Source of the DNA: an uncultured Saprospiraceae bacterium
GTDB taxonomy: Bacteria > Bacteroidota > Bacteroidia > Chitinophagales > Saprospiraceae
DNA length: 35,704 nucleotides
Assembly (NCBI GenBank): GCA_937974625.1
Contig: CALJVJ010000026.1
Coordinates: 1-35,704 of the forward strand
Reading direction: 5' to 3'
Part shown: one piece after another, positions 4,814-35,704 of the stretch
Layout of the letters: every line of letters starts with the position of its first letter
Numbering within the stretch: the first letter of the stretch is position 1
The notes under the pieces: model-generated
What the model saw: only the letters and a program-made list of their open reading frames with translations
The model's database searches: none
Told to the model about the DNA's origin: nothing
Translations under genes and position numbers: made by a program

Positions 4814-4817
4814 CAAG

Positions 4818-5710: not shown

Positions 5711-5727
5711 AATATGTACTACATATT
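5711..5727. promoter_or_regulatory. putative GntR/FCD operator, copy 2
   Basis: This perfect 17-base palindrome, AATATGTACTACATATT, ends 14 bases before the GH28 start codon. It is identical to the core of the site at 468-486. Placed so close to the start, a bound protein would block transcription or its early elongation, which fits repression by the divergently transcribed FCD-type regulator. Confidence 0.7.
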
Positions 5728-5741
5728 AATAAAGGTAATAA

Positions 5742-9328: not shown

Positions 9329-9339
9329 TTATATATAAA

Positions 9340-9475
9340 TCGATATTTCAAGTCTCCAGACTTGGAATCACTATCTAGTCATCTCCCGACGACTGTAACC
9401 TATAGAAATTAGTTATATCTCGGTCGTCGGGAGACGACCAGATAGCCGTATCGAGTCTGGAGACTCGATACATCG
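9340..9475. repeat. long imperfect inverted repeat between symporter and MIOX genes
   Basis: Two arms of about 55 bases, at 9340-9395 and 9421-9475, are reverse complements over most of their length. They share blocks AGTCTCCAGACT, CTATCT and CTCCCGACGAC. Each arm also contains a smaller internal palindrome around GTCTCCAGAC. The loop is about 25 bases and AT-rich. There is no T-run characteristic of an intrinsic terminator. It may be a REP-like or MITE-like element, or a processing site that separates expression of the transporter and oxygenase genes. Confidence 0.75.
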
Positions 9476-9513
9476 AAAAATAATATTTTTTCAAATTATA
9501 AACCTACCAAATC

Positions 9514-10335: not shown

Positions 10336-10459
10336 GCATTTTGTTGTAGGGGCAATCCCTTGTGGTTGTCCATATCTCGGATAATTCCAAAGGATATTAA
10401 GTTCTAGTTGCAGAATTTTGATTTTGATTTTTATTTTTTAGTAATAAAGATTTTAATTT

Positions 10460-10500
10460 GCAAGATATTCTCCCCCGCCAGCGGGGGAAATATATCCTGC
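10460..10500. repeat. GC-rich hairpin in intergenic space
   Basis: CCCCCGC and GCGGGGG flank a CA loop, and the pairing continues outward imperfectly through GATAT to GC at both ends, giving about 41 bases in all. The block stands out from an AT-rich surround. No T-run follows. It is probably an extragenic palindromic element or an RNA-stabilising hairpin between the MIOX and GH92 genes. Confidence 0.6.
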
Positions 10501-10597
10501 GAACCTAAAACTTCGGAAAATGATTTAACACTTTATCCGAATTTAACAGCTCAGAGTACCGCTATGTAATTTCCAAGATAAAACAAGCATTCAAAAC

Positions 10598-14455: not shown

Positions 14456-14459
14456 ATCA

Positions 14460-14779
14460 GAAGTTGTTTAAGGTTTTGTTATCAGATTGATTGTAAGTGC
14501 TTGAGATTCAAGACAAGGCTCCTTTATTTTTTTGTAGCCTTTCAGGGTGACCGAGAATGCATTTTCGTAATCGCCAAATTTATTTGGCTGGTTGATTTTC
14601 AGCACTTTATGAGAACCAGCCAATTAAAATTGGCGGTTACAAGTAGTTCTGGGTCACCCTGCTTTGCTACGGAAAACATAAATAGCTATGAGTTCGCAAA
14701 GCGAATGAACCGCATGCGGACGGGAGGCTGATTTTCAATGACTTGCAAGCAAGCCATTAGAATAACCTTAAACAACTTC
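14460..14779. mobile_element. MITE-like element, copy A (complete, 320 bases)
   Basis: Both ends carry the 16-base terminal inverted repeat GAAGTTGTTTAAGGTT. The interior has further paired arms: CAGGGTGACC at 14543-14552 with GGTCACCCTG at 14652-14661, GGCTGGTT with AACCAGCC, and the palindrome CCGCATGCGG. No protein is encoded. A related copy lies at 17717-17980. Copy A ends one base before the stop codon of the cytochrome gene and begins five bases upstream of the DUF1501 start codon, so it occupies the whole spacer between the paired genes. No clear target duplication was found. A transposase able to move it is not in the window. Confidence 0.8.
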
Positions 14780-14780
14780 T

Positions 14781-17624: not shown

Positions 17625-17716
17625 TGGCTTACAAATCGTTAGAAACTGCCTAAATGTACTTAATCTACTTTACAATTTAATATCAGTATTCGATTTTTTT
17701 ATTATAATCATATTTT
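17625..17716. other. leader region of the cytochrome gene
   Basis: This AT-rich spacer of 92 bases lies between the start codon of the minus-strand cytochrome gene and MITE copy B. It presumably holds that gene's promoter, but I could not fix one by eye. Confidence 0.3.
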
Positions 17717-17980
17717 GAAGTTGTTTAAGGTTTTGTTTTGAGATTGATTTTAGGTGCTTGGAATTCAAGACGAAGCTCATTTATTTGGCTGGTTGATTTT
17801 CAGCACTTTATGAGAACTAGCCAATTAAAATTGGCGGTTACAAGTAGTTCTCGGTCAGCCTGCTAAGCTATGGAAAACATACACAGATATGAGTTCGCAA
17901 AGCGAATGAACCGCATGCGGATGGGAGGCTGATTTTCAATGACTTCCAAGTAAGCCATTAGAATAATCTTAAACAACTTC
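17717..17980. mobile_element. MITE-like element, copy B (264 bases, internally deleted)
   Basis: It matches copy A at 14460-14779 over nearly its whole length and has the same ends (GAAGTTGTTTAAGG, with one change near the far end). It lacks exactly the 56 bases that in copy A lie between two TTTATTT repeats (14523-14529 and 14579-14585). The loss is therefore best explained by recombination or slippage between those repeats. The deletion removes one arm of the central stem, and the remaining arm has one change (GGTCAGCCTG). The copy lies upstream of both the minus-strand cytochrome gene and the plus-strand gene at 18247. Confidence 0.8.
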
Positions 17981-18246
17981 TTTTAGATAAATATAAAATT
18001 TTCTAAAAATTGATTAATTTGTAGCACTTTTTGTTTTAATTCAATCAAACTACAATTATGAGAACCAAGCTTACCTCAAGCATCAATCAAATTAATAAAC
18101 CAACAAAGGTTTTAAGTGACAATGAAATTAGCTGAATAATTTTGAGGCTTATGAAAAAATAGAGATTATAAATTAGGTATAGGAAATACATAGATAGCTT
18201 GAAAATTTTTCCTAATTATGTCCAAGTACTTATCAAAAATTAAATA
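17981..18246. other. AT-rich intergenic stretch
   Basis: No supported gene was found. A 25-codon ATG-to-TGA reading frame at 18058-18135 is too short to trust. The word TCCAAGTACTTA near 18220, also seen near 324, precedes the gene at 18247. The stretch probably contains that gene's promoter. Confidence 0.35.
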
Positions 18247-18849
18247 ATGGGAACAATAAAAAAGTTTTTTAAACAAAATTTCGTCGATTATCTCATCCAA
18301 GCAATCTTAATTTTTCTAAGTGTTTTTCTTGCTTTTTGGCTAAATCAATACCAGGCAATTTATAAAGAAGCTTACATGACAAATAGAGCAGAGTTGGCTA
18401 TTTTAAAAGAAATGAAAAACAATCTCCTCATTCTTGAAATTTTGCATGAAAATCGATTACCTCTAGTTATAGGTAAAAAAGAAACGCTAGGTAAATTGAA
18501 AGCTTACAAATCTTTTAATCAATTTAAGCTAGCAGGGCATGAAAAAGGTTTTATGAGAACGGTGTTATCCAAAAGTGCAATATCGTTAATCAATGCCAAC
18601 AACGTCAACATTGATATTAGTATCAGACAACAACTGAATAAAATATATGAAAACCAAGAGGTTTATACAACTGCAGAACGCAAACTGTTTGATGAATTTT
18701 TAAACTCTTTTGAAATAAAAAAATCTGAAAATACTAAGGCTAGTTATCTAATTTTTTATAGTCTCTTAGGGGATGTTTGGAGTAAAGAAGTAACTTTAAT
18801 TAATAGTTTAAAGGAAGCTATAGAAAATTTGGAACAAGAAGTCTCTTAG
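18247..18849 (+). CDS. hypothetical protein with one N-terminal membrane helix
   Basis: The 200-residue protein has a basic amphipathic start, one membrane helix at about residues 14-34 (ILIFLSVFLAFWLNQY), and then a mostly helical soluble part. The layout resembles the DUF6090-like small membrane proteins common in Bacteroidota: a helix ending in a LNQY or INNW-like motif, then a segment of the type LAILKEMKNNL. I recognise no catalytic motif. Just past its stop, another frame stays open for about 45 codons with coding-like composition, which may be a shifted continuation. It sits alone between two cytochrome clusters on opposite strands. Confidence 0.7.
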   Translation: MGTIKKFFKQNFVDYLIQAILIFLSVFLAFWLNQYQAIYKEAYMTNRAELAILKEMKNNLLILEILHENRLPLVIGKKETLGKLKAYKSFNQFKLAGHEKGFMRTVLSKSAISLINANNVNIDISIRQQLNKIYENQEVYTTAERKLFDEFLNSFEIKKSENTKASYLIFYSLLGDVWSKEVTLINSLKEAIENLEQEVS

Positions 18850-18982
18850 AAATGAAACTTATTTAATAAGCGTTGAAAAACTAGAGGCATTGGATATTGT
18901 TGTTGAAAATTTGAGGAGGTTTACAAAAGAACCTAGCAATCCGCATGCATATTTAGTGAAAGCATTTTTGGAAAAGCAGTAA
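18842..18982 (+). pseudogene. possible frameshifted C-terminal remnant
   Basis: In the frame one base ahead of the preceding gene, an open stretch begins at the last codons of that gene and runs to TAA at 18980-18982. Its translation includes VEKLEALDIVVENLRR and EPSNPHAYLVKAFLEKQ, a plausible helical protein tail. It has no start codon of its own. It may be the original C-terminus of the gene at 18247 cut off by a frameshift, or a remnant of another gene. An artefact cannot be excluded. Confidence 0.3.
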
Positions 18983-19051
18983 TTTTAATAAATCCGGTAC
19001 AAGTAATCCTATGCTCATGGATTCTGATTCGTAATTATAACACTTGTTCTA

Positions 19052-22000
19052 ATGAAAAATGTATATCCTATTTTATTCTCAGCAAGTTTTATTTTTCTTT
19101 TCACCGCTTGCGGTATAGAAATACCTGATGCCATCCAAAAAGAATTGGCAAACCTGCCTGATAAAATTGATTATAATTTTCATATAAAGCCTATATTGTC
19201 TGACCGTTGTTTTGCTTGTCACGGCCCAGATGCTCAAAAAAGGGAAGCGAATTTAAGATTGGATGTTGCAGAAAATGCTTATGCAGCTTTAGCTAGTGGT
19301 AATGGAAGAGCCATCATTGCAAAAAATGTAAATAGCAGTCAGTTGGCACACCGAATTCTTTCAAATGATTTAGAATTGATGATGCCTCCGCCTGAATCCA
19401 ATTTAACTTTAAATATTAATGAAAAGGCTTTATTAATAAAATGGATTGAACAAGGAGCAGTCTATAAACCACATTGGGCATTTACTAAACCTAGCAAAAA
19501 ATCTATTCCTAATGCTGGAAAAGATTGGGCGATTAATGAAATAGACCATTTTATCGCTGACAAATTAGCTTTACAAAATATCCTGCCTGCTCCCGAAGCA
19601 AATCGCGAACAACTTATTCGTCGATTGTATTTTGACCTTACTGGCTTACCACCTTCTTTAACAGATTTAGACCGTTGGACGGCAGATACTCGACCAGATT
19701 ATTATGAACATTTAGTAGATTATTTATTAACCTCCACTGCTTATGGGGAACGAATGGCGGTCCATTGGTTAGATGTAGCGAGATTTGCAGACTCAGAGGG
19801 CTATTTGGATGATTTCCACCATTCCTTTTGGCCTTATAGAGATTGGGTTATTAATGCCTTTAATAAAAATCTGCCCTATAATGATTTTATCGTTTGGCAA
19901 GTCGGTGGTGACCAAATTCCAAATGCTACCAACGAACAAAGATTGGCAACTGCCTTTAATCGTCACCATAAACAAAACTCAGAAGGTGGTGTCACTCCAG
20001 AAGAATTTAGAGTAGAATATGTAGCAGACCGAACCAATACATTTGGCACTGCTTTTATGGGCTTAACCGTAGGTTGTGCCCGTTGCCACGACCATAAATA
20101 CGACCCATTCAGCCAAGAAAACTATTATCAATTATTTAGCTATTTTAACTCCACTATAGAAAGAGGTGATGGTATTTTTGGGTATAATTCTATTGAAAAT
20201 GGGAAAAAAATTCCACATGCTTTGTCCATGAATTCAGGGCCGGTTATGCCACTTCCTAATAAAGAGGTGGAAGCTATTCGAGCTTTATTATTAAAAGAAA
20301 TTGAGGAGAAACAAACGAGTATTCGTCAAATTGCTCAGCAAAATACCAGTCAATTTGAAAATTGGCTCCTACAAAAACCAAATTCGACCATTTTAAAGAA
20401 AGCAGTTCAAAAGGCAACCATCAACCATTTGACTTTTGATTTTATGGAAAATGGGAAAGGGGTTGATTTGGTTAAGGCTAATACTCAACCAACCTATGGT
20501 GGTAATATAAAACCTGTCGTTGGAAGAAAAGGACAAGGGTTGCAGAGCGATGCGGCTGGACAATATGTAGCAGATGGAAAGAGGGCACTTTTTGAAAGAG
20601 TCGACCCTTTTACCATTAGTTTTTGGATTAAAACACCCAGTACTTTTGATAGAGGACATGTGATTTATAATGGGAATAATCGAATTCAAGGTTATCGAGG
20701 TTGGGATATAGTGATGGATAGTACCTACTTAGATTTTCGATTGAACCATGCACACCCCTATCAGTCTTTAGACATTAGAACACCTGAACCTTTGCCCTTA
20801 AATGAATGGGTACATTTTGTCTGGACCTACGATGGTTCTAGCAAAGCAAAGGGGATGCGTTTATATCAAAATGGTCAAGCCATAACGCCTATCATTCAGC
20901 GAGATTATTTGTACCGTTCTACAAAACCTTATTTAGATAAAAGAGCTTCAGTTTACGCGCATTATCAAGGACTTGTTATCGGAAACCGTCATTACGACCA
21001 AGATTTCACAGGTGGTTTATTAGATGAAGTACAGATTCTCAATCGAGAAGTGGATGATTTATCGGCGTTATACTTATACGATAAGCAGGCAGGTGAAACT
21101 GATTTCGAGCAAGCTCTTGTTCAAAAAGGCGAAAAATTAAATCATTTTTATGATTTATTTATAGATACTCATTTAGAAAAAGAAAGAATTGCCTTAAAAA
21201 ATATTCAAGCAAAAGAAGTAGAGACCATTGACACCGTACAAGAAATTATGGTGATGGGTGATTTTGAAACAGAACGTCCAACCTATATTTTGGATAGAGG
21301 GGTCTATGATGCGCATGGCAAACAAGTTAATCGAGATGTTCCCAATTCTATTTTACCTTTTCCAGATGAGCTACCTAAAAATCGCTATGGACTTGGACAG
21401 TGGCTGATTCATCCCGAGCATCCCTTAACAGCAAGAGTTACGGTTAATCAATTTTGGTATTTAATTTTTGGTAAAGGAATAGTAGAAACGGTAGAAGATT
21501 TTGGCAATCAAGCGGCTTTGCCCAGTCATCCTGAACTATTGGATTGGTTGGCAGTTGACTTTAGAGAAAATGGTTGGGATTTAAAACGTTTGATAAAACA
21601 AATGGTCTTATCCAAAACTTATCGTCAATCCTCTAAAATACGTCCCGAACTATTAGAAATTGACCCGGATAATACCCTTTTAGCAAGAGGCCCTCGTTAC
21701 CGACGGTCTGCTGAAATGATACGAGATAATGTCTTAGCATCTAGTGGTTTATTGAATCGCCAAATAGGAGGACCTTCTGCCTTTCCTTATCAACCTGATG
21801 GGCTATGGAAAGAAGCAATGACACATGCCTTTTTTCCTGAATATGCTGTAGATTATGAAAAAGGACTTTATCGTAGAAGTGTTTACACTTTTTGGAAACG
21901 CTTGATGCCGCCACCTAACATGCTGGTTTTTGATGCCGCCACAAAAGTAGAATGCCAAGTGCGTCGACAAAGAAGTAATACCCCTTTGCAAGCTCTAGTT

Positions 22001-22327
22001 TTATTAAATGACGAACAGTTTATTGAGGGATGTAGAGTGCTGGCAGAAAAAATGTGGCGAAAAGCGGACGGAGATATTGCTGAGGCAACAACTAATACTT
22101 TCCGCCTTTTAACTAGCCGAGTCCCCTCTAATCGGGAACAACAGATTCTATTGGAACAGTATCAGGCAGAATTGACTTATTTTGAAGATAATAAAGCCCA
22201 AAGTTTAGCTTATTTGGACATTGGTAAGCAACCTAGAATGGTAGATTTACCTCCTACAAATATTGCTGCGCTGGCTCGGGTAACCAATACTATTTTGAAT
22301 TCGACGGAAGCTTATTATAAGAATTAA
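19052..22327 (+). CDS. cytochrome/DUF1549/DUF1553 lipoprotein with LamG-like domain
   Basis: The 1091-residue lipoprotein (lipobox Cys20) contains a Planctomycete-type cytochrome domain with CFACH at 53-57. DUF1549 follows at about 165-375 with a second heme site, CARCH, at 342-346. A LamG/concanavalin-like beta-sandwich occupies about 485-675, with WVHFVWTYDGSSKAKGMRLY and GLLDEVQILNRE. DUF1553 covers about 775-1065. LamG folds often bind glycans, so the insert probably targets the protein to a carbohydrate. No reaction is proven for the family. The stop codon overlaps the start of the following DUF1501 gene by one base, indicating coupled synthesis of the pair. It is a second version of the system encoded at 13022-17624, without membrane helices. 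Confidence 0.9.
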   Translation: MKNVYPILFSASFIFLFTACGIEIPDAIQKELANLPDKIDYNFHIKPILSDRCFACHGPDAQKREANLRLDVAENAYAALASGNGRAIIAKNVNSSQLAHRILSNDLELMMPPPESNLTLNINEKALLIKWIEQGAVYKPHWAFTKPSKKSIPNAGKDWAINEIDHFIADKLALQNILPAPEANREQLIRRLYFDLTGLPPSLTDLDRWTADTRPDYYEHLVDYLLTSTAYGERMAVHWLDVARFADSEGYLDDFHHSFWPYRDWVINAFNKNLPYNDFIVWQVGGDQIPNATNEQRLATAFNRHHKQNSEGGVTPEEFRVEYVADRTNTFGTAFMGLTVGCARCHDHKYDPFSQENYYQLFSYFNSTIERGDGIFGYNSIENGKKIPHALSMNSGPVMPLPNKEVEAIRALLLKEIEEKQTSIRQIAQQNTSQFENWLLQKPNSTILKKAVQKATINHLTFDFMENGKGVDLVKANTQPTYGGNIKPVVGRKGQGLQSDAAGQYVADGKRALFERVDPFTISFWIKTPSTFDRGHVIYNGNNRIQGYRGWDIVMDSTYLDFRLNHAHPYQSLDIRTPEPLPLNEWVHFVWTYDGSSKAKGMRLYQNGQAITPIIQRDYLYRSTKPYLDKRASVYAHYQGLVIGNRHYDQDFTGGLLDEVQILNREVDDLSALYLYDKQAGETDFEQALVQKGEKLNHFYDLFIDTHLEKERIALKNIQAKEVETIDTVQEIMVMGDFETERPTYILDRGVYDAHGKQVNRDVPNSILPFPDELPKNRYGLGQWLIHPEHPLTARVTVNQFWYLIFGKGIVETVEDFGNQAALPSHPELLDWLAVDFRENGWDLKRLIKQMVLSKTYRQSSKIRPELLEIDPDNTLLARGPRYRRSAEMIRDNVLASSGLLNRQIGGPSAFPYQPDGLWKEAMTHAFFPEYAVDYEKGLYRRSVYTFWKRLMPPPNMLVFDAATKVECQVRRQRSNTPLQALVLLNDEQFIEGCRVLAEKMWRKADGDIAEATTNTFRLLTSRVPSNREQQILLEQYQAELTYFEDNKAQSLAYLDIGKQPRMVDLPPTNIAALARVTNTILNSTEAYYKN

Positions 22328-23829
22328 TGTTTACCAAAATGATAAAAAATACCGACTTAAAAAATGCCCAATACCTTAAAACTAGAAGAGATTTTTTAAG
22401 GACAACGACCAAAGGTTTAGGTGCAGCGGCAATCGGTTCGCTGTTGATGCCTAATTTCTTGCAAGGTCATACCAATTCCTCAGTTGGAAATATGGCACCC
22501 CTTCCTAATAATAATGGTGGCATTTTAAAAGCCTTGCATCATGCCCCTAAAGCTAAACGAGTTATATATTTATTCCAAAGTGGCGGTCCTAGCCAAATGG
22601 AATTATACGATTATAAACCAGAATTAAATAAACGATGGGGCGAAGAAATTCCTGATAGTGTGCGCGGTAATCAGCGATTAACAGGGATGTTAGCGGCTCA
22701 ATCTAGTTTTCCTTTGGTAGGTTCTAAATTTAAATTTAACCAACATCCTACAACGGGTGGTTATTTTGGGGAACTTATCCCTAATATTGCCAGTATTGCA
22801 GAAGATATTTGTGTTGTTAATTCTATGCACACAGATGCCATTAACCATGAACCTGCGGTTGTATTTATGCAAACAGGCTCTCAACAAGTAGGGCGCCCAA
22901 GTATTGGTTCATGGATGAGTTATGGCTTAGGTAGTATGAATGAAAATTTGCCTGCATTCATTGTATTATTATCCAAAGGTTACCCTGAAACACAGAATAT
23001 TAATATGCAAGCTTGGGGCAATGGATTTTTGCCTTCCCACCATCAAGGTGTTCGGTTTAGGTCTGGTGTTGACCCCGTTTTGTATTTATCCAATCCTGCA
23101 GGAATTGATAAAATGAGCCGCCGCAGAGAATTGGATTTTTTAAAAAAGTTAGAAGCGGAACAAAAAGCAGTTTGGGGGGACCCAGAAATTGATTCAAAAA
23201 TTAGCCAATATGAAATGGCCTACCGTATGCAAACCAGTGTACCCGATGTAACTGATTTTTCCGATGAACCTGATTACATTTTTGACATGTACGGTGAAGA
23301 TGCTCGAATACCAGGCACTTATGCTGCAAATTGCCTTTTAGCTAGGAGACTAGCAGAAAGAGATGTACCTTTTATTCAGCTATATCATTTAGGTTGGGAC
23401 CATCATGGAGCATTACCTTATTTACTCCCTAAATTGACTCAATCGTCCGACCAAGCCTCTGCTGCTTTAGTTAAAGATTTAAAGCAAAGAGGGCTTCTTG
23501 AGGATACACTAGTTGTTTGGGGAGGTGAGTTTGGAAGAACCAGTTTCTCTCAAGGAAAACTAACCAAAAATAACTATGGACGAGACCATCATCAACGTTG
23601 CTTTTCCATTTGGATGGCAGGTGGTGGTGTAAAATCGGGTGTCAATTATGGCGCAACAGATGATTTTAGTTACAATATTGTGCAAAATGGTGTACATGTT
23701 CACGATTTCCAAGCAACCCTCCTTCACTTATTAGGTATTGACCACGAGCGATTAACCTTCAAACATCAAGGACGTCGGTATCGATTGACGGATGTCCATG
23801 GAAAAGTCGTCAAGGATTTGATTGCCTAA
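22327..23829 (+). CDS. DUF1501 domain protein with Tat-type signal
   Basis: The 500-residue protein has a twin-arginine motif at Arg20-Arg21 (TRRDFLRTT) and an alanine/glycine-rich hydrophobic segment. Tat export with a folded, possibly cofactor-bound enzyme is therefore likely. The DUF1501 body shows VIYLFQSGGPSQMELYD, a NHEPAVVFMQTGSQ segment, a LVVWGGEFGRT strand and DHHQRCFSIWMAGGG. It starts on the TAATG junction with the cytochrome/DUF1553 gene, a well-known pairing. The N-terminus before the Tat motif is long, so translation may instead begin at Met5 (22339). Confidence 0.92.
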   Translation: MFTKMIKNTDLKNAQYLKTRRDFLRTTTKGLGAAAIGSLLMPNFLQGHTNSSVGNMAPLPNNNGGILKALHHAPKAKRVIYLFQSGGPSQMELYDYKPELNKRWGEEIPDSVRGNQRLTGMLAAQSSFPLVGSKFKFNQHPTTGGYFGELIPNIASIAEDICVVNSMHTDAINHEPAVVFMQTGSQQVGRPSIGSWMSYGLGSMNENLPAFIVLLSKGYPETQNINMQAWGNGFLPSHHQGVRFRSGVDPVLYLSNPAGIDKMSRRRELDFLKKLEAEQKAVWGDPEIDSKISQYEMAYRMQTSVPDVTDFSDEPDYIFDMYGEDARIPGTYAANCLLARRLAERDVPFIQLYHLGWDHHGALPYLLPKLTQSSDQASAALVKDLKQRGLLEDTLVVWGGEFGRTSFSQGKLTKNNYGRDHHQRCFSIWMAGGGVKSGVNYGATDDFSYNIVQNGVHVHDFQATLLHLLGIDHERLTFKHQGRRYRLTDVHGKVVKDLIA

Positions 23830-23875
23830 GACATATTTGAGATAATATAAAAAGATTGCATCCTCAACCTACTTC

Positions 23876-25432
23876 TTAAATCCCTTTTATTAATTGTTTT
23901 ACCTCTTGTCCATAATCTGTTTTAATGTGACAATAATAGTTTCCTGCTGGAAGTTTGTGCCCTTCTAAAATTAAAGAATGTGTTCCTTCTTTAAAACGAC
24001 GGTTACTTAACACTTTTATTTCATGACCCAGTACATCAAACAAACTAATTCTAGCCCAACCTGATTTTACTGTGAACTCAATTTTTGTCTGATTTACAAA
24101 AGGATTTGGAAAAGCTTTTAGTCCAAACTGTTGCGTATCTAAAAGCTCTAAAGCTGTGGTAGTTGCACAGTTATTTAAAATGGGTAAATGCTGAAAATCA
24201 GTAAATAATAAATCCCTTACACTTTGCTCTGCCACCCCCAACCAATCTACTAAGATAGACCCATACACTGACCTGAAGTCAAATTGCATCGGCACGCCTT
24301 CTCCCTGTTGTGTGTCTGGTGAGATTTCTGGATTGTCTCCTATAATCGCTGAATTTACACAAGTCCCAAAAACCATTAGAGGTGCTGCTGTACCATGGTC
24401 CGTTCCTTGACTGTCATTGGATTTTATTTGTCTGCCAAATTCAGAATAGGTCATACCTAATACCTTATCCTCTATGCCCAATTGCTTTAAATCATCTTGA
24501 AAAGCAGTGATAGCATCCGATAATTCAGTGAGCAATAGTGGATGTCGACCATTTCGGTAATCCCCTTCAGATACTTGGTCACCATGAGTATCCCATCCGC
24601 CAATATCTACTACATAAACTTTCGTTTTTAAGCCACCTGCAATCAATTTTGCCACCACTTTAAGTTTGTTGGCAAGATTACTATTATCATTGTATTTCGA
24701 TGATAAGTTAGTTCCCTTTTCATTCGCTTTTTCAATTACCTCATTATAAGAGTTGGTTTGAATAATACTATTTACCAAAAATTCCATCTTGTCTCCAAAA
24801 CATGAGTCAGGTAAGGTCCGATTAATAGGTGTGGCTAAGGCACTCAAATTACTTGGGTCGACTAAAGCTGTACTAAAATTACCGCCAGTGCCTTCACAAG
24901 TTTCGTTTACAGAAGACCCTATTGTAATAGCAAAGGGGTCCGGATAATCCTCATTTGGATAGCCATTCGGATAGTCAGGATGTAATAAGTTAAAATAACG
25001 TCCCAGCCAACCTGTTGATAATACATCTGCTGAATCAGAAGCGGTTTGCCAAATATCTGTTGACCTAAAATGTGAACGATTGGCATCAGGATACCCTACA
25101 CTTTGAATGATATTTAATTTGCCTTCTTCATACACATTTTTTAATCCTTCCATTGCTGGATGTATTCCTGTTTTGTCTGTTAAATCAAGTATTTTATTTT
25201 CTGGTAATAGAATATTTGACCTAACTGAATTTAAGTTTTCGTATTGGTCTTTAGGTAAAATCATGTTTAAGCCATCATTCCCTCCACCCATTTGAATCAA
25301 GACCAATACTCGGTCATCTCCTTTGTCAAATAAGTTGAAAAACGGATTATTTATAGCGGATACGTTTACTTTTCCCAACATCACAGGCACTGTTGCCACT
25401 GAACTTCTTTTTATAAAGGTTCTCCTTTTCAT
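23876..25432 (-). CDS. DUF1501 protein with Tat-like signal and T9SS sorting domain
   Basis: The 518-residue protein starts with KRRTFIKRSS, a Tat-like motif with a weakly hydrophobic core. The DUF1501 domain covers about 40-420, with VLVLIQMGGGNDGLNM near the front and an AEQSVRDLLF segment at its end. Residues about 430-518 form a type A T9SS sorting domain: a FPNPFVNQTKIEF strand, then RISLFDVLGHEIK and LPAGNYYCHI. The protein should therefore cross the outer membrane and be released or anchored outside. Combining a Tat-like signal with T9SS sorting is unusual. It lies 69 bases downstream of a DUF1800 gene on the same strand, the standard partner of this branch of DUF1501. Confidence 0.9.
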   Translation of the reverse strand: MKRRTFIKRSSVATVPVMLGKVNVSAINNPFFNLFDKGDDRVLVLIQMGGGNDGLNMILPKDQYENLNSVRSNILLPENKILDLTDKTGIHPAMEGLKNVYEEGKLNIIQSVGYPDANRSHFRSTDIWQTASDSADVLSTGWLGRYFNLLHPDYPNGYPNEDYPDPFAITIGSSVNETCEGTGGNFSTALVDPSNLSALATPINRTLPDSCFGDKMEFLVNSIIQTNSYNEVIEKANEKGTNLSSKYNDNSNLANKLKVVAKLIAGGLKTKVYVVDIGGWDTHGDQVSEGDYRNGRHPLLLTELSDAITAFQDDLKQLGIEDKVLGMTYSEFGRQIKSNDSQGTDHGTAAPLMVFGTCVNSAIIGDNPEISPDTQQGEGVPMQFDFRSVYGSILVDWLGVAEQSVRDLLFTDFQHLPILNNCATTTALELLDTQQFGLKAFPNPFVNQTKIEFTVKSGWARISLFDVLGHEIKVLSNRRFKEGTHSLILEGHKLPAGNYYCHIKTDYGQEVKQLIKGI

Positions 25433-25501
25433 TATTTTTTATTTAAAAATCAGTAAACCAATTTTTATAAGGACTACTGATTGAATACTTAAGAAATTGA
25501 A

Positions 25502-27151
25502 TTATACTAAATAAAACTCTGGCATACGCAGCATGGCCTTTATCAAAGCTTGCAACTTATTCTCAATAGACCCTCTTAAAGAATCATCTCCTGCTAAAAA
25601 ATCACCATATTCTACGGTCCAATTATAGTCTTCTATTCCGGGTAAAATAATTGATTTTAAAGCGGAAAGTTGCGCTGAAGTAATGGCTTGGGAAAATAAA
25701 AGCCCTGCTAGTTCATTTATCAAGTCGTTAGGGTCTGTTGGATTATCCAAATTTGCCACAAAATCCAGTACATTGAGTTCAACTCTAAATCCATTATTAT
25801 TAAATCCATTGATAAACCGGTCCGACGCGGTTTGCCTAAGCGGAAGAGATACTGAATTTATCCAAATCTTGGTATATTGTGGCGCTTGATAAAATGCTTT
25901 CCAACCAGCAACCGTGGGATGATAAAGAAATGCCATTTCCATATTTGCCAATTGCCGATAAAAAACCAAGTAAAGCCGATATTTATGAAGTGGGTCATCG
26001 GGCATTGCTAATTGAAAGGTATTCAGTATTTTGAAGTAAAAATCGGCAGGATGATTGACCATGCAACCTCTAAAAGTTTGGGCAAAAAAATGTTCGCTTC
26101 TAATTAAGGCTTTTACCACGCTTTTGATTTCATAATTATCAGCAATCATCAATTGCGCCATTGGTTCAATTATGTTGGCTTCCACTTCACTGGTAATTTC
26201 TGCATGCAAAAACCAATTATAAATCTTTCGAGATATAAAACGAGCAACTTCCGCTTTTTGAAATATAATCGCAATTACATTTTTATACTCTTCTGCTCCC
26301 CCATCCGAAATAACTATATTATCAAATCTCGGAGACAACTGTTTAGTGCCTGTATCATGTCTATTGGATACAAAATAAGAAATATTAGCATCTTGCCCCT
26401 GGGCTAAATTTGTTCTCCATCCAGTCAATGCTCTTGCTAGTTCCGATACATCTTGTTCAGTGTAGTTAGTATAGTCGCCAGGTCCTGCGAGAGGGCCTTT
26501 ACCGATAGTAAATAACTCTAACAGTTCTCTAGAATAATTCTCATTTGGTGCATTTCTAGAGTTTTGTCGACCATTTAAAAAACCTAACATTGCTGCATCA
26601 ACAGTAATTTCTTCTACAAAAGTCTTGAAATTCCCTAGTGCATTTTTTTGCAATTTGGTATAATATTCATAAAACATCCGAGACCTAGTTGGATTTGAAA
26701 CCACAAAATGATTGTGCCAAAATAGGGTCATCTTTTCTCGAATATTTATCCGCTGACTAGAGTCTTGTATATTTTTAATAGTCCATGCCAATAATGATTG
26801 TCTTCTTTTGGCTCGTAACCCTGCTATATCATTGTCTTCAATAGAATTTATCCAGGTTTCACCATTGGGTACTTCAGGGTCATCGAAAAAATTAAAATAA
26901 ATAGGTGGTTCTGGTTGTGGTTGGTCTTCTAACAATTTTTCAACAGTTGCTGTTAAACCATCGGTGACTGCTTGCTTAATTTGTGCAGGAGTAGGGCCAA
27001 AGGTTGTTCGACGTAACAAGTGAGCTGCTTGCTCCAAAGTCCATTCTCCTTGATAAGGATTTAAGGAGCTATTGGTCGTTTGCATGGTCGGTGTCGAAGC
27101 CTTTTGTTGCGGCTGGCCGAATATTTTTGCAATGGAAGTTCTTCGATTCAT
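25502..27151 (-). CDS. DUF1800 domain protein
   Basis: The 549-residue protein matches DUF1800 along most of its length. It has the opening EQAAHLLRRTTFGPTPAQI, the central KMTLFWHNHFVVSN, the ENYSRELLELFTIG motif and the closing MLRMPEFYLV. The function of the family is not known. It is typically encoded just before a DUF1501 gene, as here. No clear signal peptide is seen, so export, if any, would depend on its partner or on a motif near RRTS at the start. The short gap to the next gene points to one transcript. Confidence 0.9.
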   Translation of the reverse strand: MNRRTSIAKIFGQPQQKASTPTMQTTNSSLNPYQGEWTLEQAAHLLRRTTFGPTPAQIKQAVTDGLTATVEKLLEDQPQPEPPIYFNFFDDPEVPNGETWINSIEDNDIAGLRAKRRQSLLAWTIKNIQDSSQRINIREKMTLFWHNHFVVSNPTRSRMFYEYYTKLQKNALGNFKTFVEEITVDAAMLGFLNGRQNSRNAPNENYSRELLELFTIGKGPLAGPGDYTNYTEQDVSELARALTGWRTNLAQGQDANISYFVSNRHDTGTKQLSPRFDNIVISDGGAEEYKNVIAIIFQKAEVARFISRKIYNWFLHAEITSEVEANIIEPMAQLMIADNYEIKSVVKALIRSEHFFAQTFRGCMVNHPADFYFKILNTFQLAMPDDPLHKYRLYLVFYRQLANMEMAFLYHPTVAGWKAFYQAPQYTKIWINSVSLPLRQTASDRFINGFNNNGFRVELNVLDFVANLDNPTDPNDLINELAGLLFSQAITSAQLSALKSIILPGIEDYNWTVEYGDFLAGDDSLRGSIENKLQALIKAMLRMPEFYLV

Positions 27152-27891: not shown

Positions 27892-30800
27892 ATGACCAAA
27901 GGTTTTTTCCATTGCAGGGCATTTTTTCAAATATTTGTTACTATGCTGAAATTACCAATTACCGATTTTACACAAAAAACATGCTTTCCCTTAATTTTCT
28001 TACTATTCTCCTTTTTTTCGCATAACCTAATGGCAGAAGGCACCAAGTCCATTGCTCCATCTTCAGCTGATGAAGTAGCATTATTTATTGGTGCTGGAAA
28101 TACTGGTTTTGGTGGCGGAGATTATGGTATGTTCGCTTGGAAAGATTCCCCTTCCAAGTTCTATTTTAACATTCAAAATTCATGTGAAAAGGCTTATTTT
28201 GGCTTTAGTGTTCCCAAAACAAGCCGTTCCTTTTCAGCGAATTCTACCATTACTAAAGACCTTATATTTAGAATAATTGCGCCTGATGGTACTCCGTTGA
28301 ATGACTTATTGTGTTTTGGAAATACCACTATTAATGGAGAAGTTTGGCAAATTCTTAACACGTCTACCGCAAATATTACTAATCGCACACAAGCAGATAA
28401 TGGCCCGAGTCAATTAGGAAATACTGGTGGTTATAATGCTTTTGAATTAGATTTATCCGCTTGCGGAATTTCTCAAACTGGTAATTACTCCATTGAATTT
28501 TATACCACTGATTTGCCTTACGACCCCAATACTCCTGCTTCTGGTTTTTATATACCTTTATTTGATGTAACTGTGGCGGATTGTACCAATAATGATATTA
28601 TTGGTAGGGTATGGTCAAACAACTGGGGCTTTGGCATCAAAAATGATGGAGATGGTCCTTTTGACCGTGCGTTTAATGGCTCTTTCTACGTTTGCTCTGA
28701 AGAAGGCTTTATTACGCGACTTGATTTTAATACAGGAGTTAATACTCGTTTGGAAGCAGGGAAAAATAATGACCAACGTTCTGGTTTTAGAGCTGGGTCT
28801 TTTAATGTTTCTTTTAATAAAACTGGACCTGCGAATAGTGGAGATATTTTGGCAGATAGACAATCTGTTGGTAATCTTAATTCCCCTAACCCTACGCTAC
28901 CTGTTTTTCTTAGTTTACCCGATGAAGCTATTTGTCCTGAACCTGAAATTGGAAGTTTTCAAGCTGCGGCTAAATTTATAACTGGTTGTCCAAGTAATCG
29001 ATGTATCAATATTGAGGCAAGTGCTGTTGGGCAATTTGAAATTTTAATTGAAGGCCCCGGAGGAAATGGTATTTTTGATGAACCTACGGATAGAATTATT
29101 GCCTATTTGATAACAGAGGCAGATAAAACCGCAACTCCTCAAAATATAGATTTTGAGTATGAAGTTTGTGTGCCTTGGGATGGAAAAGATGGAGCAGGTA
29201 ATTTTTTATTTAGTACAGATATTACCGTTAAAGGTTCTTTCTCGCAAGGTATTTATCATTTCCCTGTTTATGATGCAGAATTTAATGATGATGGCTTTAA
29301 GGTAGAAACCGTTCGACCAGCTTTAGGACTACAATCTATTTTTTATGATGACCGATTGATTTCAGAAGCTAGTAATACTACAGAACCAAAGGATGGTCAA
29401 AGTGGTTGTCTTGCTCCTTGCCACAAATGGACTGGTGAGTGGGAAGATTATGCCAATAAAGATGATGTTTATGGGAATTTTAATACAATTAATTCCTGGT
29501 GGTTTGCTAATACCAGTGCAGAAGATTTAACTTCTAGTGTGGTGAGAACTGCTCCAATAAGTATCACTTGCCCACCAGATGTTAAAGATTGTCCAAATGG
29601 TGCGACAGATACTGCTCAAACAGGTGTAGCTATTGTGGAGGTTAATTCTATTTGTCCTGTTAGCTTAGATTATGAAGATATAATCCTTGAGGAAAATACT
29701 TGTCTAGGTACTAAAATTATTCAAAGAAAATGGAAGGCCTTTTTTGATTCCATGCCTGATAGTATAGTTTCCTGTATTCAAACGATTACTTTAAGTGCTC
29801 CTGAATTTATCAATTGCCCAAACGATACGGTTTTGACTTGCAATCCTAGTGGGGGAAATACCTACTTTTCTTGGCAACCTCCATCATTTGATGGTAGTTG
29901 TGGTAGTTGCCCTGAAGAGGAGGAAATTACAGGTTTTATGTATTTGGGTGAAAGAGGAGGACATCGTTACTACTGTTCAATGGATAAAGCAGTTTGGGCA
30001 GATGCTAAGGCAGGGGCAGCAAATATTGGCGGGTATTTAGCCGTCATCAATGACCGAAAAGAAAATGAATATTTAGCTAATTTTTTAGTTAATCAAAATG
30101 CTTATATTGGATTAACAGATGAGGGCGATGAAGGAAACTTCAAATGGTTAAACAATGACCCATTGGAATATACCAATTGGGCGGGTAATCAACCAAACAA
30201 CAATAATGGTAATGAACATTATGGTCAATTATTTTACAACGGTAGATGGAGTGATATTGCAGGGACGGACTCTTTAGAATATATTGTTGAGGTTCTTTGT
30301 GAGGATATTCAACAAATTGAAGGCCCTTTAAATGGAGAATCTTTCCCCATTGGAACGACCACCGTAACTTATCAAAATGGACCTGATTGTGGTGGTAATA
30401 CTTGCAGTTTCACTGTAACCGTAGAACCAAATTTAATTTTAGATTGTACAGAAGACATCATTGTTAATTGTGAAGATGGGCAAAATGGTGCTAAGGTGAC
30501 TTGGGAACCGCCTACTGCTAGCAGTTGTTGCGATAATTGCCCAGCAGCAGGCCAAGAGATAGAAGGGTTTGTTTATATGGGAAGATATAAGGGACATCAA
30601 TATTATTGTTCTAAAGAGAAGGCTACCTGGCCAACAGCTAAATTAATTGCCGAAAATAATGGTGGTTACTTAGCAGTTATCAACGATGCCGCAGAAAGTA
30701 ATATGCTAGGGGCTTTTTTAGCGAATCAAAATGCTTTTATAGGATTGCACGATACCAACAACGAAGGTAAATATGAATGGGTAAATGGCGACCCTTTTGA

Positions 30801-31872
30801 TTTTACCAATTGGTATCCTGGACAACCAAACAATAGAAATAATAACCAAGATTATGTGCAATTATTACCGGATGGCCGGTGGGATTATTATTATACAGAT
30901 AAACCTTTAGAGTTCATTATGGAGTTGCCCTGTCTGGATATTCAACAAACGGCAGGCCTTGCTAATGGTAGCATTTTTTCTGCTGGGACAACAACCGTTA
31001 GTTACACAGTAGAAGATGATTGTGGTCAAAAAGAAAGTTGCTCTTTTGATGTAACCGTTAATCCTTGTACAGCTAATGCTACACCTAAAGAATATTGTGA
31101 AGTGAAAGGTGAAAATACTTATTTTTTCTGGATTCGACATGTGGTTTTAGGAGCGATTAATAACGCTACAGGCAGTGATGGCGGATATGGTGATTATACT
31201 AATTTAAAAACGACTATTCAACCAGGGACAGAACAAACATTAGTGCTTTCCCCTGGATATGCAAGAAATCGCTATTGGGTTTATTGGACCGTTTGGATTG
31301 ACTTCAATAATGATGGGGATTTTGAAGATGCTGGCGAAGAATTATTAACGCACAAAGACTATAGAATTATTAAAGCAAAGATTGATATACCTCATAATGC
31401 AGTTCCTGGAAAAACTAGAATGCGAGTTGCGCTGAAATATGGTAGAAAAGCTGGTAGTTGCGAAACCTTTAGATATGGTGAAGTAGAAGATTATTCTATT
31501 AATATTTCATCTGCTAGTCTTGTAAATTCTGCCGCCAGACATAACAGCCTTAGACCTGCCAGAATTGAAGTATTAGAAACGAATGTTGCTCCTCCTACAT
31601 CTGAGTTATCTACAATTGATAACCCTGAAATGAAGGTTTTTCCAAATCCAATTTTCAAAGATTTAAATGTTCAATTGTCGAATTTCCATGAGAAAGAAGG
31701 CAGTCTGAAAATCTACAATCAATTGGGGCAGACCATTCACCAACAAGCTATCTCAGAAGAAACGAACCAAAATTTGGTCCTTGACCTTAGACATATTTCA
31801 GCTGGCTTGTATTTTATAAGCATTGAATCTAATGGACAAGAACCAATTGTTCAGAAATTTTATAAAGAATAA
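27892..31872 (+). CDS. secreted multidomain protein with two C-type-lectin-like domains and T9SS sorting domain
   Basis: The 1326-residue protein begins with a Sec-type signal. The second Met at residue 18 (27943) gives a more typical signal peptide and may be the true start. The first 640 residues are beta-rich repeats with no recognised family. Two C-type-lectin-like domains follow at about 680-804 and 887-1013, each with an IGL segment, a WxNxxP-like NWAGNQPN or NWYPGQPN motif and terminal cysteines. Each is followed by a short HYR-like beta domain. A GEVED domain lies near 1120-1205 (WVYWTVWIDFNNDGDFEDAG). A type A T9SS sorting domain ends the chain (KVFPNPIFKDLNVQL). It is likely a surface or released adhesin that binds glycans. 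The following hairpin at 31911 looks like its terminator. Confidence 0.85.
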   Translation: MTKGFFHCRAFFQIFVTMLKLPITDFTQKTCFPLIFLLFSFFSHNLMAEGTKSIAPSSADEVALFIGAGNTGFGGGDYGMFAWKDSPSKFYFNIQNSCEKAYFGFSVPKTSRSFSANSTITKDLIFRIIAPDGTPLNDLLCFGNTTINGEVWQILNTSTANITNRTQADNGPSQLGNTGGYNAFELDLSACGISQTGNYSIEFYTTDLPYDPNTPASGFYIPLFDVTVADCTNNDIIGRVWSNNWGFGIKNDGDGPFDRAFNGSFYVCSEEGFITRLDFNTGVNTRLEAGKNNDQRSGFRAGSFNVSFNKTGPANSGDILADRQSVGNLNSPNPTLPVFLSLPDEAICPEPEIGSFQAAAKFITGCPSNRCINIEASAVGQFEILIEGPGGNGIFDEPTDRIIAYLITEADKTATPQNIDFEYEVCVPWDGKDGAGNFLFSTDITVKGSFSQGIYHFPVYDAEFNDDGFKVETVRPALGLQSIFYDDRLISEASNTTEPKDGQSGCLAPCHKWTGEWEDYANKDDVYGNFNTINSWWFANTSAEDLTSSVVRTAPISITCPPDVKDCPNGATDTAQTGVAIVEVNSICPVSLDYEDIILEENTCLGTKIIQRKWKAFFDSMPDSIVSCIQTITLSAPEFINCPNDTVLTCNPSGGNTYFSWQPPSFDGSCGSCPEEEEITGFMYLGERGGHRYYCSMDKAVWADAKAGAANIGGYLAVINDRKENEYLANFLVNQNAYIGLTDEGDEGNFKWLNNDPLEYTNWAGNQPNNNNGNEHYGQLFYNGRWSDIAGTDSLEYIVEVLCEDIQQIEGPLNGESFPIGTTTVTYQNGPDCGGNTCSFTVTVEPNLILDCTEDIIVNCEDGQNGAKVTWEPPTASSCCDNCPAAGQEIEGFVYMGRYKGHQYYCSKEKATWPTAKLIAENNGGYLAVINDAAESNMLGAFLANQNAFIGLHDTNNEGKYEWVNGDPFDFTNWYPGQPNNRNNNQDYVQLLPDGRWDYYYTDKPLEFIMELPCLDIQQTAGLANGSIFSAGTTTVSYTVEDDCGQKESCSFDVTVNPCTANATPKEYCEVKGENTYFFWIRHVVLGAINNATGSDGGYGDYTNLKTTIQPGTEQTLVLSPGYARNRYWVYWTVWIDFNNDGDFEDAGEELLTHKDYRIIKAKIDIPHNAVPGKTRMRVALKYGRKAGSCETFRYGEVEDYSINISSASLVNSAARHNSLRPARIEVLETNVAPPTSELSTIDNPEMKVFPNPIFKDLNVQLSNFHEKEGSLKIYNQLGQTIHQQAISEETNQNLVLDLRHISAGLYFISIESNGQEPIVQKFYKE

Positions 31873-32630: not shown

Positions 32631-33083
32631 ATGGATACACCTAATTTTGATAATATAGACCCTAGAGTTTGCGTAAATGCAAAATTGAGAAAGCTTCATC
32701 GCTTGCTTAATACTGCTTATCAGAATAAAATCAATCCTTTTGGTTTAAGAGGAAGTATGCTGTCTATTTTATTTATCATTGGTAAAAGGAAAGGAGTAAA
32801 TCAAAAAACCATTGCAGATGCTTTAGTTTTAGACCAATCTACCATGAGTAGAGACCTAAAAAAGTTAATTCAAAAAGGTTGGGTGGTAAAATCAACAGGA
32901 GCAGATTCTAGATATTCTCAATTGGCTTTAACAAAGGATGGCTATGCCCTATTAGAAGAGGTTACGCCAGTTTGGGAAGCTTTACAAGAAAAAATAACAG
33001 GCATTTTAGGAGCTTTTAATGTCCAGCAAATTGACCAAATTACACAAGCTATCACAGCTAATCTACCTGAACTTAAAAAATAA
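32631..33083 (+). CDS. MarR family transcriptional regulator
   Basis: The 150-residue protein has the MarR winged helix-turn-helix. Recognition-helix features include QKTIADALVLDQSTMSRDLKKL, and the wing follows with SRYSQLALTKDGYALL. Residues 1-45 and 115-150 are the dimerisation helices. MarR proteins bind palindromes as dimers and release DNA on binding small aromatic compounds or on oxidation. An imperfect and a perfect copy of the same palindrome lie before this gene and in the 46-base gap to the next gene. It probably controls itself and the membrane protein gene downstream. The ligand is unknown. Confidence 0.92.
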   Translation: MDTPNFDNIDPRVCVNAKLRKLHRLLNTAYQNKINPFGLRGSMLSILFIIGKRKGVNQKTIADALVLDQSTMSRDLKKLIQKGWVVKSTGADSRYSQLALTKDGYALLEEVTPVWEALQEKITGILGAFNVQQIDQITQAITANLPELKK

Positions 33084-33097
33084 TTTTTTTCACCATA

Positions 33098-33115
33098 TAC
33101 TTGTATATACAAGTA
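33098..33115. promoter_or_regulatory. putative MarR operator, site 2 (perfect)
   Basis: TACTTGTATATACAAGTA is a perfect 18-base palindrome in the gap between the MarR gene and the membrane protein gene, ending 14 bases before that start codon. Its size and AT-rich centre fit MarR binding sites. A related site lies before the MarR gene. Confidence 0.7.
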
Positions 33116-33129
33116 ATAAAACTATATTT

Positions 33130-33843
33130 ATGTCTGATTTACCTAATAGTCTTGCACTTCCTTTCTATTTGCCGATAATATTTGGTCTAGCATCACTTTA
33201 TACGCTTATCCAATTTTATAGAATTATTAGTAAATCTAAAGGGTTTAGTTCCAAAGCCAATTTGATTATTGGTGGTTTGATTGTTTGGATAGGTTTACAA
33301 GCTATGTTGTCCTTAAGCCATTTTTATACAATAAAAACAATGACTAGCCCACCCCGATTTTTGTTAGCTTTTTTCCCAATTTTATTATTCATGGTATCGG
33401 TATTCATAAGTAAACAAGGCAGGAAGTTTGTAGATAGTTTACCTCTTTTGCCTATTACTTGGTTAAATGTTGTTCGAATTCCTGTAGAATTTTGTTTGTA
33501 TTGGTTATTTTTAGATAAAGCAGTTCCTGAATTAATGACTTTTTCCGGTCGAAATTTTGATATTTTAGCGGGGCTAACAGCGCCATTTGTAGCTTATTTT
33601 GGCATTAAGAATGGTCAATTAAATCGTAAATTCCTTTTGGCCTGGAATGTTGTCTCTCTAGGTTTATTAGTATTCATCATATTTAATGGCTTACTTTCTG
33701 CTCCAACGGTTTTACAACAATTTGCATTTGAACAACCGAATATCGCTTTAGCTTATTTTCCCTTTGTATTATTACCAGCTTTAATTGTTCCCGTGGTATT
33801 ATTTGGACATTTTGTATCAATTCGTCAATTGTCTAGCAAATAA
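33130..33843 (+). CDS. hypothetical integral membrane protein, probably MarR-controlled
   Basis: The start at 33130 gives 237 residues with about seven membrane helices, among them LIIGGLIVWIGLQAML, FLLAFFPILLFMVSVFI and FVLLPALIVPVVLFGHF. A longer in-frame start at 33019 is unlikely, since it would lie inside the MarR gene and translate through the palindrome. I recognise no transporter or enzyme signature. The next-door MarR regulator and operator suggest an inducible role, perhaps in response to a toxic or aromatic compound, but this is inference. Confidence 0.75.
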   Translation: MSDLPNSLALPFYLPIIFGLASLYTLIQFYRIISKSKGFSSKANLIIGGLIVWIGLQAMLSLSHFYTIKTMTSPPRFLLAFFPILLFMVSVFISKQGRKFVDSLPLLPITWLNVVRIPVEFCLYWLFLDKAVPELMTFSGRNFDILAGLTAPFVAYFGIKNGQLNRKFLLAWNVVSLGLLVFIIFNGLLSAPTVLQQFAFEQPNIALAYFPFVLLPALIVPVVLFGHFVSIRQLSSK

Positions 33844-33951
33844 AATTATAGCTAGGATTGCATCCCAAATGAATTAATTGAGGTTCACAATTTCACGAAT
33901 CTTTATTTTATATTTTAAGCTTACCCTGATAATACCCCAAGAAGCGCAGCT
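33844..33951. other. junction between host genes and the small-gene island
   Basis: AT-rich spacer with no gene. After about 33930 the base composition shifts to richer GC. The frame of the disrupted gene at 33952 is already open from 33919, which suggests that its original start region has been altered. Confidence 0.35.
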
Positions 33952-34197
33952 ATAACAACCAAATTTCAAACGGATAGAATCGTTATTCAAATTTCAGAGA
34001 ATCGAGATTTTGAGATTTGCGACGAAGAGGGATTTTGTCTCGTTTCTACGGATTGCGGAAAATTCAACTTTTACATTTTTGAGTATTTAGGAGATACGCT
34101 TGCTTATACGTATATGCCAACGAGCGAACAGCTGGGCGAATGTTTTGATTCCTATATCCTCAAAGCCAAGATTCGAAAACCCTAAACCCCTACCCTA

Positions 34198-34422
34198 GTG
34201 CCTATGCAGCTAGTCAGCCGCCACAAAGACCAGACACCTAGCAGCACAGGCACACCCGCAGCAGTAGCCCAAAACCATCAGCAGCAAAGCTGCTAGGTGG
34301 TTTGGGCCACTGCTCAAAGCCAACCCGCTCCAAAGTAAATCGGAAACGATGGTGAGCCAACGCGCGGAAGTAGACACCTACGGCATAGCCGCACTTCGTG
34401 CGAGTACCTTGGTGGCCACTTC
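34198..34422. repeat. three consecutive GC-rich imperfect hairpins
   Basis: Hairpin 1 (34198-34253) pairs GTGCCTATGCAGCTAG with CTAGCAGCACAGGCAC. Hairpin 2 (34261-34313) pairs GCAGTAGCCCAAAACC with GGTTTGGGCCACTGC and closes around GCAGCAAAGCTGC. Hairpin 3 (34366-34422) pairs GGAAGTAGACACC with GGTGGCCACTTCC and holds an inner GCACTTCGTGC. The block is much richer in GC than its surroundings. It could be a structured RNA, a folded recombination site or an origin. No known RNA family was recognised. Confidence 0.65.
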
Positions 34423-34445
34423 CCCACCCTACGCACTTAATACGG

Positions 34446-34559
34446 GTATCACTGTATCAAAAAAAAGGTTGCTAGGAATTAGCATTGGAAAGCCTTATTT
34501 TTGGTTACTAATTTTCTTAATTACTGTATCACGTTAAACACTAGTTTGTTTTGATACAG
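34446..34559. promoter_or_regulatory. repeated TGTATCA words upstream of a small ORF
   Basis: GTATCA occurs at 34446, 34454 and 34526 on the plus strand, and TGATAC occurs at 34552. CTGTATCAAAA at 34452-34462 and TTTTGATACAG at 34549-34559 are perfect inverted copies. The last copy ends 28 bases before the ATG at 34588. Repeated, oriented words of this kind suit a cluster of protein binding sites controlling the ORF. Confidence 0.5.
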
Positions 34560-34587
34560 AAATCCAGAAATAATTAAATATAAAATC

Positions 34588-34902
34588 ATGGCAGCATTAT
34601 TTTACATTACTTCACCAGAAGTAAATTATACTAAAACTTGGCACATAGGCGCTAAACCCAATTTAAGCAAAGAAGAAATTGAAAACCTAGAGAAAGTGGA
34701 AATTGATGGAGACGAGGCTCAGTTTTTATATGGCTTTGGAATTAAATTTGACCATCCTAGAGTACATACCTTAAAAGGGAATGAAGCTAAAATGTATGTT
34801 ATTATTGCCTTATGTCTTTATGGCGAAAATTCAACCTATGAAGATACAGAAGGAAAAATAAACACCTATTTAAAAGGAGACTCGAATCCTAAGCTTAATT
34901 AA
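34588..34902 (+). CDS. hypothetical small protein inside the inserted cassette
   Basis: The 104-residue product is acidic, with no signal peptide or membrane helix. It contains MAALFYITSPEVNY at the start and a KMYVIIALCLYGEN strand later. I recognise no family. It is the only ORF with good coding character in the inserted segment and has its own upstream repeated words, so it is probably the cassette's payload. A role cannot be assigned. Confidence 0.6.
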   Translation: MAALFYITSPEVNYTKTWHIGAKPNLSKEEIENLEKVEIDGDEAQFLYGFGIKFDHPRVHTLKGNEAKMYVIIALCLYGENSTYEDTEGKINTYLKGDSNPKLN

Positions 34903-35026
34903 TCCAAGATTTTCGAATCTCGATTGGTGTCACTTGTTCCGGAATAATTCGAATTCTAGAAACTGGTTACGTAGGAGATTGGAGCGGGAACTTTGAACCT
35001 AGTATCATTTATCAAGAAACAGAATC

Positions 35027-35227
35027 ATGAAAATTGTAAAATTCTTTTTTAAGAATCTTCATAAGATTCACGAAAAACACAAAATTGAGGAATCGGAGGA
35101 AGCTAAAGACTTTTCAGATATTTGGTCTAACACCACGGAGCAAGGGAAAAAAGAGATAGGAAAAGAACTAAGCGGAATCTCAAAATTAACGACTAGAAAA
35201 TTAGGCACTAAGCCTGCTGATAATTAG
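35027..35227 (+). CDS. hypothetical small charged protein
   Basis: The 66-residue product is rich in lysine and glutamate and mostly helical, with no recognised domain. Its ATG overlaps the stop of the disrupted gene (ATGA), so translation was coupled to it. It ends with TAG. The next small gene starts 18 bases later in the same frame. It probably belongs to the same compact operon, perhaps of phage or plasmid origin. Confidence 0.6.
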   Translation: MKIVKFFFKNLHKIHEKHKIEESEEAKDFSDIWSNTTEQGKKEIGKELSGISKLTTRKLGTKPADN

Positions 35228-35245
35228 AAACTAAAACCCAGCACC

Positions 35246-35446
35246 ATGCTAACAATCACCAAACTCTATTATTCCGATACCTAGTATAAAGGTATCTATG
35301 AAGCCATCGACGAAAACGGGAAACGGTGGAGCTGGGTTCAATTCGTCGAATTGGAACTCGGAACAGGTTCCCCGTTTCCAGATGTCGGCGACCAGGTGCC
35401 GAATCCTTTAACTAAATACTTGAACCAGAAAAGGCGTAACCAATGA
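35246..35446 (+). pseudogene. small gene with in-frame amber codon
   Basis: The frame begins MLTITKLYYSDT and meets TAG at 35282-35284 (codon 13). It then continues without another stop for 53 codons, with coding character (YKGIYEAIDENGKRWSW, then LELGTGSPFPDVGDQVPNP), to TGA at 35444-35446. No in-frame ATG follows the amber codon. A single CAG-to-TAG change would explain it. The TGA overlaps the start codon of the next gene (ATGA). It is probably recently inactivated. Amber readthrough or suppression is possible but not shown. Confidence 0.65.
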
Positions 35447-35652
35447 CCATAATCATCAAACCCAATTCCATGAGGCAATGGATGGACTGGACCGAGCGAC
35501 TGGAGGATGCTGGTTGCGAGTGGAAAGCCATTCCTTCCACGAACCAAAACGCTAAAACGGAACAGGCTGCACTTTCCAGTATTCAGTTGGATAAGCTAGA
35601 TGCGGAATATATTTTGGGGGTGGTGATTTTAGCGGATGAATTTAATAACTAG
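35443..35652 (+). CDS. hypothetical small protein
   Basis: The 69-residue product starts MTIIIKPNSMRQWMDWTERL and ends DAEYILGVVILADEFNN. It has no signal peptide and no recognised domain. Its ATG lies on the TGA of the preceding broken gene, showing tight coupling. It ends in TAG, and a hairpin follows at 35673-35700. Confidence 0.55.
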   Translation: MTIIIKPNSMRQWMDWTERLEDAGCEWKAIPSTNQNAKTEQAALSSIQLDKLDAEYILGVVILADEFNN

Positions 35653-35672
35653 TCTATAAGCTACTTTTTTCG

Positions 35673-35700
35673 ATTTCGCATAATACCCAGAGTGCGAAAT
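35673..35700. terminator. possible hairpin at the end of the small-gene operon
   Basis: ATTTCGCA and TGCGAAAT form an 8-base perfect stem with a 12-base loop, 20 bases after the last stop codon. A T-run precedes the hairpin rather than following it, and the window ends four bases later, so its role as a terminator is uncertain. Confidence 0.4.
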
Positions 35701-35704
35701 AATT

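Follow-up and report, generated by a model that had tools for sequence, protein, structure and literature searches.

A short reading frame that may be interrupted at a shared TTCGAA by a composite 734-base segment

The described systems that come closest to the locus reported here are MITEs and other non-autonomous insertions, integron gene cassettes, and the illegitimate or microhomology-mediated capture of DNA. A segment of the MITE kind is short, is without a transposase and has a direct repeat at its ends, as has the segment of this study. In integrons, the core consensus of attC is RYYYAAC/GTTRRRY. A search of the literature by title found no work on the present feature.

The window (the whole stretch of DNA analysed, 35,704 nucleotides) comes from a genome assembled in 406 contigs and 84.49% complete. 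At the contig end, a cluster of four reading frames occupies positions 33952-35652. We give about an even chance to the explanation that this is a decaying cluster of orphan frames, of which the first was broken when a one-off, composite segment of 734 bases entered the palindrome AGATTCGAATCT, with TTCGAA left on both sides. The features of the region are as follows.

33952-34177, plus strand: left portion of the ORF presumed to be interrupted; no ATG, GTG or TTG start; best frame by codon usage, narrowly
34172-34177, no strand: left TTCGAA copy, from the sequence
34178-34911, plus strand: presumed inserted segment, 734 bases; one copy found in its own genome
34196-34440, no strand: GC-rich stretch with three hairpins (34198-34253, 34258-34316 and 34354-34440) from folding; no Rfam family at gathering score
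34450-34561, plus strand: repeat-like unit of about 110 bases that carries CTGTATCA motifs; inverted ends of 15 bases (93%); relatives in genome G333
34588-34902, plus strand: insert ORF, 104 codons; codon usage like the larger genes of the window; no relative found
34912-34917, no strand: right TTCGAA copy, from the sequence
34912-35030, plus strand: right portion of the ORF presumed to be interrupted; stop overlapping the following ATG as ATGA
35027-35227, plus strand: next ORF of the cluster, 66 codons, from the ORF list
35246-35446, plus strand: 66-codon frame with an in-frame TAG at 35282-35284, from the reading frame; probable pseudogene
35443-35652, plus strand: 69-codon ORF with an ATGA overlap with the preceding frame, from the ORF list

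On the left, the frame stays open over 33952-34182 and stops at TAA (34183-34185). Joining the two parts at TTCGAA gives 112 codons without a stop, up to TGA at 35028-35030, and neither ATG, GTG nor TTG was found as a start of this joined frame. Coordinates and translation thus bear out what the preliminary description had reported, namely TTCGAA on both sides, 734 bases in between and an open union of about 112 codons. The joined site is the 12-base palindrome itself, and perfect palindromes of this length occur eight times in the 35.7-kb window. The description had also denied terminal inverted repeats. This holds in so far as there is only the palindromic TTCGAA with its AA/TT flanks, but a 10-base inverted pair, GATTCGAAAA/TTTTCGAATC, is present at the segment ends and consists mostly of the palindromic repeat (AGATTCGAATCT). 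That the insertion was recent, as also claimed there, was not borne out.

Between the left and right frames there are 19 pairs of shared 6-mers when overlapping words are counted apart, and 13 of them join open, among them another join at TTCGAA (34948) and an 8-mer common to both frames (34088/34972). Ten shared 6-mers lie in the same frame in slightly trimmed parts. The in-frame 6-mer criterion is weak, since 98.8% of 1000 codon shuffles contained such a word somewhere. Taken alone, the shared 6-mer with its open joined frame is nearly uninformative, and the lesson of this case is that the two together are, by themselves, almost no evidence. The position of the join is less common. Through codon shuffles (20000 for each limit) of parts trimmed by 3 and 6 bases, we found an in-frame shared 6-mer within 12, 15, 20 and 30 bases of both edges in 1.4, 2.4, 4.8 and 11.3%, respectively. 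For the trimmed parts the observed join is inside the 12-base limit, and for the full frames it is within about 15 bases, so that 1.4-2.4% applies, a value for which the edge limit was fixed post hoc, with the case already seen.

A codon-usage score was trained on 13 genes of the window and compared over six frames, in bits per codon. The joined frame was the best of six in both parts, narrowly in the left (-0.09, next -0.13) and clearly in the right (+0.04, next -0.22). For reference, the training genes cut into 37-codon pieces gave a mean of 0.15 (sd 0.13), compared with -0.28 (sd 0.14) for wrong frames. On short pieces such a test has little power, because the non-coding stretch upstream (33844-33951) scores as high as the parts, with one frame, containing two stops, at +0.01. 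At 35027-35030 the stop of the right part overlaps the start of the next ORF in ATGA. Within the joined protein, hydrophobic and polar residues alternate most strongly over the 11-residue stretch LKAKIRISIGV (residues 69-79), which contains the join at residue 74, and the score of this stretch was matched anywhere in 0.52% of 5000 residue shuffles. This strand pattern is partly two half-strands in matching phase, since each half alternates by itself.

No homolog of the joined protein was found in 199 family genomes or in the genome_contigs, viral_contigs, phages and plasmids sets; the scans of genome_contigs and viral_contigs are seeded by exact matches of short peptides and detect no more than close relatives. 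Four of 385 phylum genomes gave a match, the own genome and three weak ones (E 0.0007-0.009, one-genome values in a search of 385). We judged all three to be chance: the match in G935 (residues 50-99) spans the join and falls where the ORF list has no entry, and the other two lie on the strand opposite to a listed ORF. The family-library searches (Pfam/NCBIfam) gave nothing, and PHROGs gave E 0.35 for residues 36-97, across the join. The preliminary description had called for a homolog uniting both parts, and the family, phylum, phage, plasmid and contig sets yielded no convincing one. The exact pattern of the joined site was absent from viral_contigs, stretch 33900-35704 had no DNA match among plasmids, and no empty site with uninterrupted DNA was found.

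The other frames of the cluster are similarly isolated. The 66-codon ORF at 35027 has no convincing homolog and no Pfam or NCBIfam match (PHROGs, E 0.05 and 0.31). For the frame at 35246, matches were found in six of 396 genomes, the own and five weak ones (E 0.004-0.008), with none in the family-library search or in PHROGs. The ORF at 35443 has no convincing homolog and no Pfam, NCBIfam or PHROGs match. The cluster as a whole looks decayed, because its first frame has no start and its third contains an in-frame TAG.

Most of the larger genes upstream of the cluster match Pfam families. The gene just upstream (33019-33843) has matches in seven of nine genomes of the genus, the own included, with 31-35% identity outside the own genome. 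Farther upstream we observed a sugar-related cluster at 518-12958 (glycosyl hydrolase families 115, 28 and 92, a sodium-solute symporter and myo-inositol oxygenase). At 13022-27151, three DUF1501, two PSCyt/PSD1 proteins and one DUF1800 protein are encoded close together, and 27892-31872 encodes a protein of 1326 residues with C-type lectin, HYR, GEVED and C-terminal sorting domains.

The 734-base segment appears composite: GC-rich hairpins come first, then the unit of about 110 bases, and then the ORF. It may be read as a patchwork of hairpin-rich DNA, a repeat unit also present in another genome of the genus, and a short ORF whose codon usage is host-like. The first part has 56% GC over 34178-34451, and fold z-scores of the hairpin-rich stretch were -4.3 for DNA and -4.7 for RNA of the plus strand, and -5.5 for RNA of the minus strand. 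Rfam gave nine matches below threshold (E 0.054 to 8) and none at gathering score. A distant DNA search with 34172-34600 hit one phage in two records (E 0.4) and no plasmid. The insert ORF scored +0.16 bits per codon. It has no convincing relative (one partial plasmid match, E 0.3) and no match in Pfam, NCBIfam or PHROGs.

Further copies of 34178-34911, which the preliminary description had proposed to look for, were not found in the own genome, where 40 of 48 and 40 of 50 first-look candidates were scored, and only partial, short matches were seen elsewhere. In the family DNA search, 41 of 398 genomes, the own included, had some match at E 0.01. The best foreign match was 63 bases at 84% in G333, and a long match was found in none of the 398 genomes, all with two first-look candidates scored per genome. 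The inner unit 34450-34561 has two relatives, both in G333, a genome of the same genus, on contigs C301 and C81, the C81 copy being cut by the contig end. Two parts of the unit, searched as exact patterns, hit 14 of 143 loci, all of which represent the three places in the window, C301 and C81, and the exact pattern of the unit's core was absent from viral_contigs. As read, the ORFs flanking both copies differ from those of the window. Near the C301 copy, the end region of the window is otherwise represented only by its contig-end repeat, at a distance of 11 kb, and by matches that are short and weak. When the window end was compared directly with five other stretches, the unit and the contig-end repeat were shared, and the other matches were weak.

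This contig-end repeat (35674-35704) is palindromic and about 31 bases long. Copies with 1-4 mismatches occur in G333 and G344 of the genus and in G168 of the family, and one copy in G344 follows a Tn3 transposase gene at a distance of about 110 bases. Its interpretation as the end of a Tn3-type transposon was dropped; the sole candidate on the opposite strand had nine mismatches and lay inside the transposase ORF. A possible copy at L098 (1473-1503) retains the core ATAATACCCAGAG but has other stem letters to its left and right (GGGC/GCCC), a pattern resembling the conservation of a hairpin whose loop is fixed. With 11 mismatches it does not rise above the control, in which shuffled patterns, searched over all loci with up to 11 mismatches allowed, gave 2-11 matches.

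On the insertion claimed by the preliminary description, a gene interrupted at TTCGAA is the somewhat more likely reading, as suggested by the codon frame, the ATGA overlap and the strand pattern, but neither a homolog nor an empty site accompanies it. We infer the insertion rather than observe it, since no empty site was found and the assembly is fragmented. Both parts would once have been one gene, and DNA would have been gained at the site, possibly through illegitimate (microhomology-type) joining or through a trans-acting enzyme that duplicates six bases. The chief rival dispenses with insertion: both frames would be unrelated remnants left in intergenic DNA under decay, and their joining at TTCGAA would be a coincidence found by looking. 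Its probability is appreciable, if well below even. The abundance of in-frame 6-mers in the shuffles, the many pairs that join open, the absence of a convincing homolog and of a usual start codon in both parts, and the codon score of the non-coding control are all as it would predict. A join at both frame edges, the best codon frame on both sides, a strand pattern running over the join and the overlap of the right part with the next ORF argue against it.

A transposase-less small cassette, mobilised by an enzyme encoded elsewhere and duplicating six bases at palindromic targets, is unlikely, even though the target is palindromic, the left part rich in hairpins and the ORF provided with its own upstream region. 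It is opposed by the single copy found among the candidates scored in the own genome, by the lack of a long match among the two candidates scored per family genome and by the inner unit, which in G333 stands without the rest of the segment. Less likely still in our estimate would be the narrower form of this idea, a hairpin-bearing single-gene cassette without transposase that targets 12-base palindromes like AGATTCGAATCT and duplicates six bases on entry. The "new type of small cassette" of the preliminary description is not supported, as the segment appears composite, one copy was found in its genome and no common ends were seen. An assembly chimera is most improbable of all; the genome is fragmented and incomplete and the region lies at a contig end carrying a repeat dispersed in the genus, but the codon usage of the insert ORF is host-like, and a shared word of six bases is too short to mislead an assembler. 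Should an empty site confirm the insertion, the frame would add another case of a gene disrupted by passenger DNA; a novel type of mobile unit would be indicated only if the same ends turn up elsewhere.

Compared with the known systems, the segment also resembles a MITE in holding a unit of about 110 bases that is bounded by 15-base inverted ends and has relatives in another genome of the genus. However, these inverted ends belong to the inner unit and not to the 734-base segment, which has no terminal inverted repeats at its own ends and is known from one copy in its genome; relatives exist for the inner unit only. As a possible target-site duplication, TTCGAA is seen on both sides, with the coincidence rate of the edge-restricted shuffles given above. 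The small ORF adjoining a structured stretch recalls an integron gene cassette, but the segment ends at TTCGAA, and no exact attC core was found on either strand of 34172-34470. The integron integrase model TIGR02249 exceeded its cut-off in none of nine genus genomes, the incomplete own genome among them; sub-cut-off matches occurred in 9/9 genus and 14/14 control genomes, none over cut-off, so that this search had no positive control. No group I or II intron or other catalogued RNA element was matched by Rfam at gathering score. Illegitimate or microhomology-mediated capture differs in that the event here is deduced and its empty site not seen, and it resembles the locus in its one-off occurrence, its composite content and its short junction repeat.
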